A program made the position numbers and the translations under genes. From contig NZ_JOAK01000001.1 in assembly GCF_000720455.1 (NCBI RefSeq), forward strand, positions 434,001 to 498,000: a stretch of DNA of 64,000 bases, written 5' to 3'. The stretch comes from Streptomyces virginiae (GTDB lineage: Bacteria > Actinomycetota > Actinomycetes > Streptomycetales > Streptomycetaceae). Below, piece by piece: positions 3,132 to 7,227 of the stretch. Every line of letters starts with the position of its first letter. Position 1 is the stretch's first letter. The notes under the pieces were generated by a model. The model was not told where the DNA came from. It was given only the letters and a program-made list of their open reading frames with translations, and did no database searches.

Positions 3132-3771
3132 CGCAACGCTGCACGCACTCGGCCAGGACCCGGACGACTTCGCCGCCTCGATCGCCGACCAGATCGAGTC
3201 GTTCATCGTCGCGGTCACCGAGGTGGCCAAGGGCGAGGACCCGGACAGCGCGGTGCCCTTCCTCCTCCTGGAGGTGTCGCAGCTGCTGCTCGCGGGCGGC
3301 CGGCTGGGCGCGTACCAGGACGTGCTGCCCGACGAGCGCTACGAGCCCGACCTCGGCCCGGAGCCGGACGTCGACGAGCTGCGCGAGCGCTTCGCGCACA
3401 TGCTGGAGCCGGTCGACGTGTACTCGGAGGTGTTCGACCCCTACGAGCCGCGCAAGGCCCCGGTCGCGCACCGGATCTCCGACGACCTGGCGGACGTCGT
3501 CGCCGACCTGCGGCACGGCCTCATCCACCACCAGGCCGGCCGGATCACCGAGGCGCTGTGGTGGTGGCAGTTCTCGTACTTCACCAACTGGGGCCCGACG
3601 GCCTCGGCGACCCTGCGCGCCCTCCAGTCGCTGATCTCGCACGTGCGGCTGGACCAGCCGCTGGCGGCCCTGGACGGCCTGGACACGGACGAGGACATGA
3701 CCGAGGACGACCTCGCGGAGCAGGCCGGACAGGTGATGGCGCAGGAGCTCGGCGGCCTGGGCCGCACCTGA
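3124..3771 (+). CDS. DUF5063 family protein
   Basis: The ATG at 3124 lies inside the end of recR and is preceded by GAAGGAAGG. The 215-aa product is acidic and cytosolic. It has the DUF5063 pattern of a D-D-L-A-D-V-V-x-D-L segment, a [12 protein letters not shown] aromatic block near residue 145, and an R-A-L-Q-S-L helix. No function is known to me. Its constant place behind ybaB-recR in streptomycetes suggests a link to DNA metabolism or simple co-expression, which is inference only. Confidence 0.85.
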
Positions 3772-3805
3772 CCCTCCCGCGCGGGAACCCGGACTCTGAT
3801 CTTTT

Positions 3806-3855
3806 CGTCTCATGATGTGGTACGAGACGGTCGGATCCCGGGCGCTCGTTACACT
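3806..3855 (+). promoter_or_regulatory. Putative ask promoter and dyad element
   Basis: TACACT at 3850-3855 is a good vegetative -10 box 36 bp before the ask start; a clear -35 is lacking. Upstream, CGTCTC (3806-3811) and GAGACG (3824-3829) form a 6-bp inverted repeat with a 12-bp spacer, a possible operator or weak hairpin. Confidence 0.45.
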
Positions 3856-3891
3856 GCACCAGCAATGAGACGGACTGAGCGAGGAGCGCAC

Positions 3892-5166
3892 GTGGGCCTT
3901 GTCGTGCAGAAGTACGGAGGCTCCTCCGTAGCCGATGCCGAGGGCATCAAGCGCGTCGCCAAGCGGATCGTGGACGCCAAGAAGAACGGCCACCAAGTGG
4001 TCGTCGTGGTGTCCGCGATGGGCGACACGACGGACGAGCTGATCGATCTCGCCGAGCAGGTTTCACCGATGCCTGCCGGGCGCGAATTCGACATGCTGCT
4101 GACCGCCGGAGAGCGGATCTCCATGGCCCTGCTGGCCATGGCGATCAAAAACCTGGGCCACGAGGCCCAGTCGTTCACCGGTAGCCAGGCAGGCGTCATC
4201 ACCGACTCGGTCCACAACAAAGCGCGCATCATCGATGTCACGCCGGGCCGTATCCGCACCGCGCTGGACGAGGGCAACATCGCCATCGTCGCCGGTTTCC
4301 AGGGCGTGTCCGCGGACTCCAAGGACATCACCACCCTCGGCCGCGGCGGGTCGGACACCACCGCCGTGGCGCTCGCCGCGGCGCTGGACGCCGAGGTCTG
4401 CGAGATCTACACCGACGTCGACGGCGTCTTCACCGCGGACCCCCGCGTCGTGAAGAAGGCGAAGAAGATCGACTGGATCTCCTCCGAGGACATGCTGGAG
4501 CTCGCCGCCTCCGGTTCCAAGGTGCTGCTGCACCGCTGTGTCGAGTACGCACGCCGATACAACATCCCGATCCACGTCCGCTCGTCCTTCTCGGGACTGC
4601 CGGGCACCTGGGTCAGCAACGAGAATCCGCAAGGGGACGAGCAGGTGGAGCACGCCATCATCTCCGGAGTCGCTCACGACGTCTCCGAAGCCAAGATCAC
4701 GGTCGTCGGCGTCCCGGACAAGCCGGGCGAGGCCGCGGCGATCTTCCGCGCCATCGCGGACGCCGAGATCAACATCGACATGATCGTGCAGAACGTCTCC
4801 GCGGCCTCGACGGGCCTCACCGACATCTCCTTCACGCTCCCCAAGGCCGAGGGCCACAAGGCCATCGACGCCCTGGAGAAGGCGAAGGGCGCGATCGGCT
4901 TCGACTCCCTGCGCTACGACGACCAGATCGGCAAGATCTCCCTGGTCGGCGCCGGCATGAAGACGAACCCGGGCGTCACCGCCTCGTTCTTCCAGGCGCT
5001 GTCCGACGCGGGCGTCAACATCGAGCTGATCTCCACCTCGGAGATCCGCATCTCGGTCGTGACCCGCCAGGACGACGTCAACGAGGCCGTCCGCGCCGTG
5101 CACACGGCCTTCGGCCTCGACTCCGACAGCGACGAGGCCGTCGTCTACGGAGGCACCGGACGATGA
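3892..5166 (+). CDS. ask: Aspartokinase (alpha subunit, with internal beta start)
   Basis: 424 aa. The GTG at 3892 has GAGGAG five bases upstream and gives the canonical N-terminus with K-Y-G-G-S-S at residues 7-12. The kinase domain has the R-G-G-S-D-T-T-A motif near residue 150. Two ACT regulatory domains follow, from about residue 255 and 340, so lysine/threonine feedback control is likely. It phosphorylates aspartate, the first step to lysine/DAP, threonine and methionine. An in-frame GTG at 4645 with AAGGGG eight bases upstream would start a 173-aa beta subunit, as in other actinobacterial alpha2beta2 aspartokinases. The stop overlaps asd (ATGA). Confidence 0.95.
4645..5166 (+). CDS. Aspartokinase beta subunit from internal in-frame start
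   Basis: GTG 4645-4647 is in frame with ask, is preceded by AAGGGG at 4631-4636, and begins V-E-H-A-I-I-S-G-V, the position where the beta subunit of Corynebacterium LysC starts. The product is 173 aa and consists of the two ACT domains only. The start site is inferred from this similarity and the ribosome-binding site. Confidence 0.55.
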
Positions 5167-6239
5167 CGGCACCCCGGTCGACCCCGGCTCCGGCTCTCGC
5201 CGTCGTCGGGGCGACCGGAGCAGTCGGTTCGGTCCTGCTCCGGATGCTGTCCCAGCGGGCGGACGTCTGGGGCGACATACGCCTGATCGCCTCCGTGCGC
5301 TCGGCGGGCCGCATGCTGTCCGTCCGCGGGCAGGAGTGCGAGGTGCTCTCCCTCACCGAGGACGCCTTCGACGGCCTCGGCCCGGGCGACGTCGCGGTCT
5401 TCCTGACCCCGGCCGAGGTCTCGGCCCGGTGGGCCCCCGTCGTCACCGCGCGCGGCGCGGTCGTCGTCGACCAGTCCGCCGCCTTCCGGGACGATCCCGA
5501 GGTGCCGCTCGTGGTGCCCGAGATCAACGCCCACGCGGCCCGGATCCGGCCGCGCGGGATCGTCGCCGCCCCCGACACCGTCACCGCCGCGATGATCGCC
5601 TCCCTGGGCGCGCTGCACGCCGAGTACGGGCTGACCGAGCTGGCCGTTTCCACGTACCAGGCGGCGAGCGCCGCCGGCCGGGCCGGCTCCGAGGCGCTGC
5701 GCCGCCAGCTGTCGCTCGTCGCGGGGACCCCGCTGGGCGAGCAGCCCGGCGACGTGCGCCGTGCCGTGGGCGAGGACACGGGCCCCTTCGCGGCCCCCCT
5801 GGCCCTCAACGTCGTGCCGTGGTGCGGCGAGCTGAACGAGGACGGCTGGTCCTCGCACGAGCTGGCCGTACGGGCGCAGACCCGCCGGATCCTCCAGCTG
5901 GAGGCGCTCCCGGTGTCGGTGACCTGCGTCCGGGTGCCGGTGCTGACCGGGGACTCGCTGACGGTGCGGGCCGGTTTCCAGAACGAGGTGAAGGCCGCGC
6001 GCGCCCGGGAGATCCTCGAGGCCGCGCCCGGCGTCGTGCTCGTGGACGACCCCGCGGCGGGGGAGTTCCCCACTCCCGTGGACGCCGCCGGGACGGATCC
6101 TGCCTGGGTGGGGCGGGTGCGGGCCTCGCTCGACGACCCCTACGCGCTGGAGTTCTTCGTGTGCGCCGACAATCTCCGCCAGGGGGCGGCGCTGAATGCC
6201 ACGCAGATCGCGGAACTGATCGCGGGTGAATTTGCGTAA
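5163..6239 (+). CDS. Aspartate-semialdehyde dehydrogenase-like protein lacking catalytic residues
   Basis: 358 aa, coupled to ask by an ATGA overlap. The fold is clearly ASADH: an N-terminal G-A-T-G-A-V-G NADP-binding loop, D-Q-S-A-A-F-R, S-T-Y-Q-A-A-S with the active-site Gln, P-T-P-V, and a C-terminal D-N-L-R-x-G-A-A motif. The normal S/N-P-N-C-T/S active-site segment reads A-P-D-T-V-T, so the nucleophilic Cys is Thr139. The catalytic His of T-x-H-S is Asp264, and the Glu of the D/N-E-T/S-R-K segment appears as Gln239. By eye this is a pseudoenzyme, so a functional Asd must be encoded elsewhere. It may have a regulatory or structural role with Ask. Confidence 0.85.
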
Positions 6240-6408
6240 TTCGCTTTGTAGGATCGGTGCCGATCCCTTGATCAAGGTGATGGCCCGACTGCCGTTTCGC
6301 TGGACGGGGCAATCGGGAAGAGCGGGTACGCATGAGCGCAATACGGATTTCTCTGGTGAGGCTTCCACGCGCGTACAACCCTGACGGGGGGACGCGTGTC
6401 CTACAGGC

Positions 6409-7227
6409 GTGGCAGAGGCACTGCTCGAACTGGCCGTCCTACCGGCACGCACGGGGATCCTCCCGCCGCGCCGGGACTTCCGCACGCCCGGCGGCGGTCT
6501 TCCTGTGATCGTTCCCGTCCCGCCGACGGGGACCCCCGAGGCTCCCGCCGGGACCGCCGCACCACTCCCGGGCGGCCTCGTGCCCACACAGCGCGACAGC
6601 GCTGAGGCGGACGGGAGCGGCAAGGACTCGACGGCCGTGGCCGTCGCCGATGCGGCCGTCGCCGATGCGGTCGTGGCCGATGCGGTCGTGGCCGATGCGG
6701 TCGTGGCCGACGCGGTCGCCGACGTGGTGGCCGGCACCACCGTCGACCACCTCACGGCGACGTACCAGGCGCACTACCGCTCCCTCCTCGGCCTCGCGGC
6801 GCTGCTCCTCGACGACACCGCCTCCTGCGAGGACGTCGTGCAGGAGGCGTTCATCCGGGTGCACTCGGCCCGCAACCGGGTCCGCGACCGCGAGAAGACC
6901 CTGGCGTACCTGCGCCAGACCGTCGTGAACCTCTCGCGTTCCGCCCTGCGCCGGCGCATCCTCGGTCTCAAGCTGCTGTCGAAGCCCATGCCGGACATGG
7001 CGAGCGCCGAAGAGGGCGCCTACGACCAGCTGGAACGGGACGACCTGATCAAGGCGATGCGGGGGCTCCAGCGTCGCCAGCGCGAGGTGCTGGTGCTGCG
7101 CTACTTCGCGGACATGACGGAGTCCCAGGTCGCCGAGACCCTCGGGATATCGCTCGGCTCGGTCAAGGCGTACGGATCGCGGGGCATTGCCGCGCTGCGG
7201 GTGGCGATGGAGGCTGCGCAGTCATGA
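6409..7227 (+). CDS. ECF (SigE-family) RNA polymerase sigma factor
   Basis: Region 2 (Y-Q-A-H-Y-R through E-D-V-V-Q-E-A-F-I-R-V, about residues 120-180) and region 4 (L-x-x-R-Q-R-E-V-L-V-L-R-Y, then an L-G-I-S-L-G-S-V-K helix-turn-helix, about 215-262) identify a group IV sigma factor. The N-terminal ~110 residues are not part of the fold and contain a tandem pentapeptide repeat. The start is uncertain: GTG 6409 opens the frame with a weak CAGG upstream, while GTGs at 6505 and 6580 are alternatives. The stop overlaps the next gene (ATGA), whose membrane protein is probably its partner or regulator. Confidence 0.85.
   Translation: MAEALLELAVLPARTGILPPRRDFRTPGGGLPVIVPVPPTGTPEAPAGTAAPLPGGLVPTQRDSAEADGSGKDSTAVAVADAAVADAVVADAVVADAVVADAVADVVAGTTVDHLTATYQAHYRSLLGLAALLLDDTASCEDVVQEAFIRVHSARNRVRDREKTLAYLRQTVVNLSRSALRRRILGLKLLSKPMPDMASAEEGAYDQLERDDLIKAMRGLQRRQREVLVLRYFADMTESQVAETLGISLGSVKAYGSRGIAALRVAMEAAQS
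6634..6726 (+). repeat. 15-bp tandem repeat in the sigma-factor gene
   Basis: Four to five near-identical copies of a 15-bp unit (GTCGTGGCCGATGCG) encode repeated V-V-A-D-A pentapeptides in the N-terminal extension of the ECF sigma factor. The copies are almost identical at the DNA level, so copy number is likely to vary between strains. Confidence 0.85.

Follow-up and report, generated by a model that had tools for sequence, protein, structure and literature searches.

In the window, by which we mean the whole 64,000-nucleotide stretch of Streptomyces virginiae DNA that was analysed, the aspartokinase gene (ask) is followed by a homologue of aspartate-semialdehyde dehydrogenase (ASADH; gene asd) whose catalytic residues have been replaced. 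We consider it probable, at about 0.6, that this ask-linked Asd is a pseudo-ASADH that has been retained and whose role is non-catalytic. About half of that probability is assigned to a pathway partner, itself a guess, and the remainder to another non-catalytic role.

The gene runs on the forward strand from an ATG at 5163 to a TAA at 6237–6239 and encodes 358 amino acids with no internal stop. Its start overlaps the stop of ask (3892–5166, forward strand; probable GTG start at 3892, start codon inferred) in the ATGA at 5163–5166, so that the intact, ask-coupled frame proposed in the original prediction was borne out. A GGAGG within the 3′ end of ask (5149–5153, forward strand) is its likely ribosome-binding site, and no sigma-70-like promoter was found in 3750–6700. 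The Ask proteins of 18 other Streptomyces genomes are 86–97% identical to that of the window. Further downstream, a 15-base repeat occurs five times at 6642–6718 and encodes V-A-D-A-V repeats close to the N terminus of the next open reading frame (6409–7227), which is sigma-factor-like and whose true start is uncertain.

The encoded protein has the ASADH fold, as judged by Pfam domains PF01118 and PF02774, a curated-model match and a predicted structure. It matched the curated Asd model PRK14874 over its full length (346 bits, cutoff 223) and scored just below the cutoff of TIGR01296 (312.2 bits, cutoff 324.2), which a Cys-bearing sister (L017, 317.1) also fails and which the canonical linked copies L034 (381.9) and L070 (392.3) pass. 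The fold was predicted with a mean pLDDT of 86 and was weak at residues 171–220, including 195–209. The PDB matches listed first by Foldseek were ASADHs, with a best TM of about 0.8 and an rmsd of 4.5–7 Å.

To assign catalytic residues, we aligned the protein with solved ASADHs, with other ask-linked copies and with the second asd of its own genome; all codons below are on the forward strand. The segment P-D-T-V-T occupies residues 137–141, with codons from 5571 (5571–5582 covers P-D-T-V). Within it, Thr139 (5577–5579) replaces the nucleophile Cys135 (E. coli numbering) and Asp138 (5574–5576) replaces Asn134. Gln239 (5877–5879) replaces Glu241, Arg242 (5886–5888) replaces Lys244, and Asp264 (5952–5954) replaces the acid–base His274. 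Thr139, Gln239 and Asp264 had been named in the original prediction, and the alignments confirmed all three at the residue numbers given there; N134D and K244R are two further replacements that it did not contain. The protein thus lacks the nucleophile Cys of a catalytic ASADH, and likewise the acid–base His and the substrate-binding Glu. It retains Arg109 (5487–5489; R102, phosphate binding), Gln166 (Q162) and Arg257 (5931–5933; R267, substrate carboxyl), the last of which was kept or regained and is Gln in most near relatives.

The same residues are present in S. yangpuensis (L003), S. amritsarensis (L004) and NRRL F-2664 (L032). Among 121 proteins, comprising the query and 120 relatives listed of 7999 candidates scored in a search that admits only proteins of similar length, 17 combined Thr139 with Asp or Glu at 264, and three further Thr139 proteins had His or Asn at 264. 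The recurrence of these residues in three other named genomes and in 17 of the 121 proteins rules out a sequencing error at 5571–5582. We also looked for a nucleophile Cys elsewhere: Cys255 is a common family Cys, Cys59 and Cys334 are variable, and Cys221, in P-W-C-G (5823–5825, alignment of listed relatives), is at most a speculative candidate. In Table 1 of PMC3276109, the kcat left in single mutants of the Haemophilus influenzae enzyme is <0.01% for C136S, 1.0% for H277N, 1.2% for E243D and 3.3% for K246R. Because these substitutions differ from those in the window, inactivity of the window protein is an inference, and a strong one; we regard the protein as very likely to be catalytically inactivated.

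The replacements are concentrated at the catalytic sites. We defined 86 sites that are strictly invariant in 18 linked copies from outside Streptomyces and 32 second-type copies, references picked by lineage that left out the third-type L141 and L179–L181 as well as L178 and the split L081/L128. In the window protein, 5 of the 8 catalytic sites were changed compared with 9 of the 78 other invariant sites (Fisher p = 0.0024). The 14 changes are N104Q, I134V, N138D, C139T, T140V, G170A, A221C, E232H, K235A, E239Q, K242R, P247E, H264D and K340Q. The 72 unchanged sites include the DNLR-GAALN block and residues 16–19, 21 and 22 of the motif G-A-T-G-A-V-G (residues 16–22, 5208–5228), which we take to bind NADP as elsewhere in the family. 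Tyr165-Gln166 (5655–5660), which correspond to the intersubunit Tyr and to Gln162 and whose role is described in PMC3276109, are also kept.

We next measured conservation in ten-residue blocks for 95 canonical and 11 Cys-less copies from Streptomyces, two sets unmatched for divergence. Conservation dropped most in the Cys-less copies at 221–250 and 131–150 (0.14–0.26), and by about 0.14–0.16 also at 51–60, 71–90, 101–110, 321–330 and 351–358. By contrast, the drop was at most 0.07 at 181–220, the region with the linked-type element PGDVRRAVG. Residues 195–209 (5745–5789, forward strand) form a linked-type Asd element that is still conserved in Cys-less copies but missing from the genome's own second Asd; this comparison marks them as a candidate contact surface.

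The genome (G000) contains one other asd match, which lies unlinked at G000:C2:155632-156645, is 43% identical and carries P-N-C-T, E-S-R-K and G-H-S; the search for a second asd with P-N-C that had been proposed as a check therefore returned a gene with canonical residues. In a census of 150 evenly drawn Streptomyces genomes, each at least 95% complete, 149 contained an asd of this second type (E ≤ 1e-110). The sole exception (G008) has a fully canonical linked copy, and since its assembly is in 740 contigs, an assembly gap is possible. Catalytic residues of second asd genes were read in fetched sequences only, and Asn, Cys, Gln, Glu, Arg and His were kept in all 36 distinct second- or third-type sequences (32 second, 4 third). 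For census genomes with a Cys-less linked copy, the second asd was read in G000, G014, G030 and G139 (via L121; G139 and G066 have identical coordinates), and is known from a high-scoring match only in G003, G006, G131, G135, G164 and G192. Five further genomes with Cys-less linked copies (G061–G065) have a canonical second asd. The presence of a second, unlinked asd in Streptomyces means that the ask-linked copy could lose catalysis; this redundancy accounts for catalysis being lost, not for the protein being kept.

Additional ASADH genes were seen in several genomes. S. yangpuensis (the genome of L003) has a third asd (L129, G061:C3:608862-609890) with canonical residues, 69% identical to the second type. 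A further ASADH type (L141 and L178–L181) shares roughly 40% identity with both the linked and the second type and has Cys and His in all five sequences. In one genome, two equal-scoring second-type asd genes lie in opposite orientation 20 bases apart (G156:C140:564358-566417), a pair that may be an assembly artefact.

Loss of the linked copy itself was also evident in part of the genus. A linked-type match was missing in 14 of the 150 genomes, in about six lineages. In 13 of these, the roughly 1.5 kb after ask contained no Asd-like DNA (best E 0.48), and in the remaining one (L294) the contig ends 47 bases past ask. One genome without linked asd (G115) has an Ask 97% identical to that of the window. 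The linked asd was frameshifted in a single genome (G005), a one-contig assembly in which it lies in two overlapping frames covering residues 1–220 and 209–357 (L161, G005:C1:3462900-3465000); this is a real pseudogene in the same genus. Split matches in G137 and G162 were each found to be one open frame, which rules out a frameshift there.

Among the 135 readable linked copies, 72 had all eight catalytic residues. The Cys was missing in 10 (Asp in six, Ser in two, Ala in one and Thr in one), Glu241 was Gln in 9 and Arg267 was missing in 32. The His was missing in the window copy only, and with five of eight catalytic residues changed this copy is the census maximum, the next having four. On a FastTree phylogeny, Cys-less copies (21 rows, duplicate loci included) formed 8 groups, an approximate count because of the weak inner support of the tree. 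Outside Streptomyces, all 18 linked copies used were canonical, and the linked type was the sole match in 17 of 24 genomes.

These losses were stepwise. Setting aside the Thr139/acid group left 104 near relatives among the 120 listed, of which 98 had Asp138, 98 Arg242 and 96 Gln or Leu at R267. These relatives are mostly altered at Asn134, Lys244 and Arg267 with the Cys mostly kept, so that binding residues were lost ahead of the nucleophile. The changes Asn to Asp, Glu to Gln and Lys to Arg are common to Cys-bearing relatives, as stepwise decay entails. The 17 window-clade proteins in the 121-protein set still vary, with one R102L, three Q162E and one Glu for Asp at His274. Position 257 is Gln in P0017, the most divergent protein of the Thr139/acid group, as it is in most near relatives, so the Arg257 of the window protein may be a reversion.

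Although catalytic residues were lost, the protein remained under purifying selection. We wrote codon models for the present analysis (GY type, F3x4) and used DNA from four window-clade genomes. In a ten-genome comparison, the window-clade crown dN/dS of the linked gene was 0.078, compared with values of 0.047 and 0.008 for the second asd and ask, respectively; the linked-gene clade did not differ significantly from its background of 0.112 (LRT 3.1). With 17 linked copies on a tree rooted outside the foreground, dN/dS was 0.103 on the background, 0.298 on the stem and 0.080 in the crown, and three rates fitted better than one (LRT 9.5, 2 df). A dN/dS of 1 was rejected for the crown (LRT 193) and more weakly for the stem (LRT 5.6). 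In an 11-sequence set, stem and crown jointly gave 0.108 compared with 0.102 on the background. A looser stem followed by a tight crown is the trace expected from a change of role, but is suggestive only because it concerns one branch.

Two other Cys-less clades behaved similarly. The Cys-to-Asp clade (four genomes, crown length 2.3) had a crown dN/dS of 0.059 with neutrality rejected (LRT 603); its stem value of 7.4, which had reached the highest rate that the fit allowed, was discarded. The Cys-to-Ser clade (crown length 0.13) gave 0.114, again with neutrality rejected (LRT 43), from a thin sample of three rows, two of which are the same genome, leaving two distinct sequences. Simulations on the real-data tree, four runs each, returned 0.84–1.09 for a true value of 1.0 and 0.064–0.078 for a true value of 0.08. 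Retention of the protein by selection after Cys loss is therefore supported in three lineages, one of them thin, and the window protein has lost catalytic residues while purifying selection continues elsewhere in its sequence, as in a retained pseudoenzyme. The low dN/dS could also reflect avoidance of harmful misfolding or an unrecognised enzyme activity. The description 'inactivated but retained' in the original prediction is thus supported by the H. influenzae mutants and by purifying selection after the loss.

Selection after Cys loss bears directly on whether the linked gene, its reaction covered by the second asd, is a functionless redundant copy in passive decay towards a pseudogene. 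Such decay would fit the near-universal second asd (149 of 150), the missing (14 of 150) and frameshifted (1 of 150) linked copies and the catalytic residues that still vary among the 17 window-clade proteins of the 121-protein set. However, dN/dS was 0.06–0.11 after Cys loss in three clades, with neutrality rejected in each, and all 17 window-clade proteins are 358 amino acids long, although the search admits only similar lengths; we consider passive decay distinctly unlikely. A related possibility, and a special case of the reading that we favour, is that the dead protein is a prozyme-like subunit that tunes the active second Asd in mixed dimers. The two proteins belong to the same family (43% identity), the Tyr-Gln of the intersubunit network is kept, and a dead twin that acts as an activator has been described in another family, the AdoMetDC prozyme of PMC6221367. 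Yet the genome's own second Asd has nothing that corresponds to the 195–209 loop, and the second asd manages without a linked copy in 14 genomes, making this version unlikely.

It is very unlikely, in our estimate, that the altered pocket (Asp138, Thr139, Gln239, Arg242 and Asp264) catalyses another reaction, possibly via Cys221. An altered pocket is common among the 104 listed near relatives, in which the Cys is mostly kept, and Cys221 occurs in all 17 proteins that combine Thr139 with Asp or Glu at 264 and in none of the three Thr139 proteins without the acid. The Cys replacement differs by lineage, however (Thr, Ser, Asp, Ala or Pro), which would be expected of loss rather than gain, and residue 221 aligns with Ile in the Streptococcus pneumoniae enzyme. 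Cys221 as a displaced nucleophile is only speculative. Outside the group with Thr139 and an acidic 264, we saw Cys221 only in L037 and P0112, both with Cys139.

We return to the favoured reading, a pseudo-ASADH retained in a non-catalytic role. The unlinked second asd left the ask-linked copy free to lose its catalytic residues, which it did stepwise in several lineages, the window clade having gone furthest in our sample. What remains would be a folded, probably dimeric, NADP-binding protein that keeps a non-catalytic job, most likely as a partner of other proteins that act early in the aspartate pathway. Translational coupling would make such a partner in step with Ask, and contact with Ask or with the active second Asd may occur via linked-type surfaces such as residues 195–209. 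Tentatively, every Streptomyces ask-linked Asd could have a non-catalytic job in the ask operon that predates the loss of catalysis; the unlinked asd would then have made the catalytic site optional, and the roughly eight losses would have laid the second job bare.

We also compared Ask between genomes with and without linked asd. Only P60, S105 and I345 passed our filter, each in three of six lineages; residue 60 is Pro in 4 of the 14 genomes without linked asd versus 98% of 153 others. These three sites are too weak to use as evidence that Ask co-changes with loss of linked asd, and Ask thus shows no visible dependence on it, which argues mildly against an essential Ask regulator. Regulation of aspartokinase, as originally proposed, accordingly gained no support and was not refuted: the operon link is kept and only three Ask sites differ. 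So the original interpretation stands for an inactivated, retained protein and lacks support for Ask regulation. The equivalents of E241 and K244, assigned to the substrate amino group and to phosphate, are replaced, which makes literal binding of aspartyl phosphate, also proposed, less likely; the R102 and R267 equivalents stay. Several observations count against the favoured reading: the linked gene is dispensable over evolutionary time, Ask hardly changes in its absence, the gene is under weaker constraint than ask and the second asd, the two-rate comparison of the window clade with its background was not significant, and catalytic positions still vary within the clade.

Among titles, abstract openings and open PMC text, we found no catalytically dead Asd copies in Streptomyces, nor, in open PMC text, repeated loss beside a second asd together with continued constraint. 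The ask and asd genes of S. clavuligerus and S. akiyoshiensis are reportedly the subject of older studies. All the named entries viewed among the 120 listed relatives are labelled aspartate-semialdehyde dehydrogenase, so that a dead gene would be taken for an enzyme in metabolic models and in strain engineering. PMC5801464 names aspartate-semialdehyde dehydrogenase as one of the functions that have expanded in Streptomyces and attributes every expansion except two to horizontal transfer. With its graded and repeated loss, and with intact and degraded forms found at the same place within a single genus, the linked asd offers a ready comparative system for roles of Asd besides catalysis. If the non-catalytic job is indeed the older one, the enzyme would be a moonlighting biosynthetic one and the window clade its natural separation-of-function mutant.

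Compared with Asd proper (PRK14874, TIGR01296; M. tuberculosis 3tz6 and S. pneumoniae 2gz1), the window protein is alike in fold, NADP motif, Tyr/Gln network, length and position after ask, and differs in that the active-site Cys, His, Glu, Asn and Lys are replaced. The Cys-bearing linked Asd proteins of the S. lavendulae group (L017 and L005; 85–86% identity) occupy the same operon place and share Asp138, Val140, His232, Ala235 and Arg242 with it; they differ in keeping Cys139, Glu239 and His264 and in having Gln at Arg267. E. coli Usg (b2319, NP_416822; PRK08040), annotated 'putative', is an ASADH relative that adjoins truA. Like the window protein, it has P-D as the first two letters of P-N-C (P-D-S in Usg), and, like many Streptomyces linked copies, it has Gln for Arg267. 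Unlike the window protein, Usg keeps the equivalents of Glu241, Lys244 and His274 and is without those of R102 and Q162. The two belong to separate lineages; against PRK08040 (cutoff 273), the window protein scored 177.1 bits and Usg 683.5. Usg is altered at Asn134, Cys135 and Arg267, positions that also vary in the Streptomyces copies, and is thus a convergent precedent for a protein of the ASADH family that lacks the nucleophile. The Streptomyces copies may also help to establish whether Usg-type proteins share such a job.
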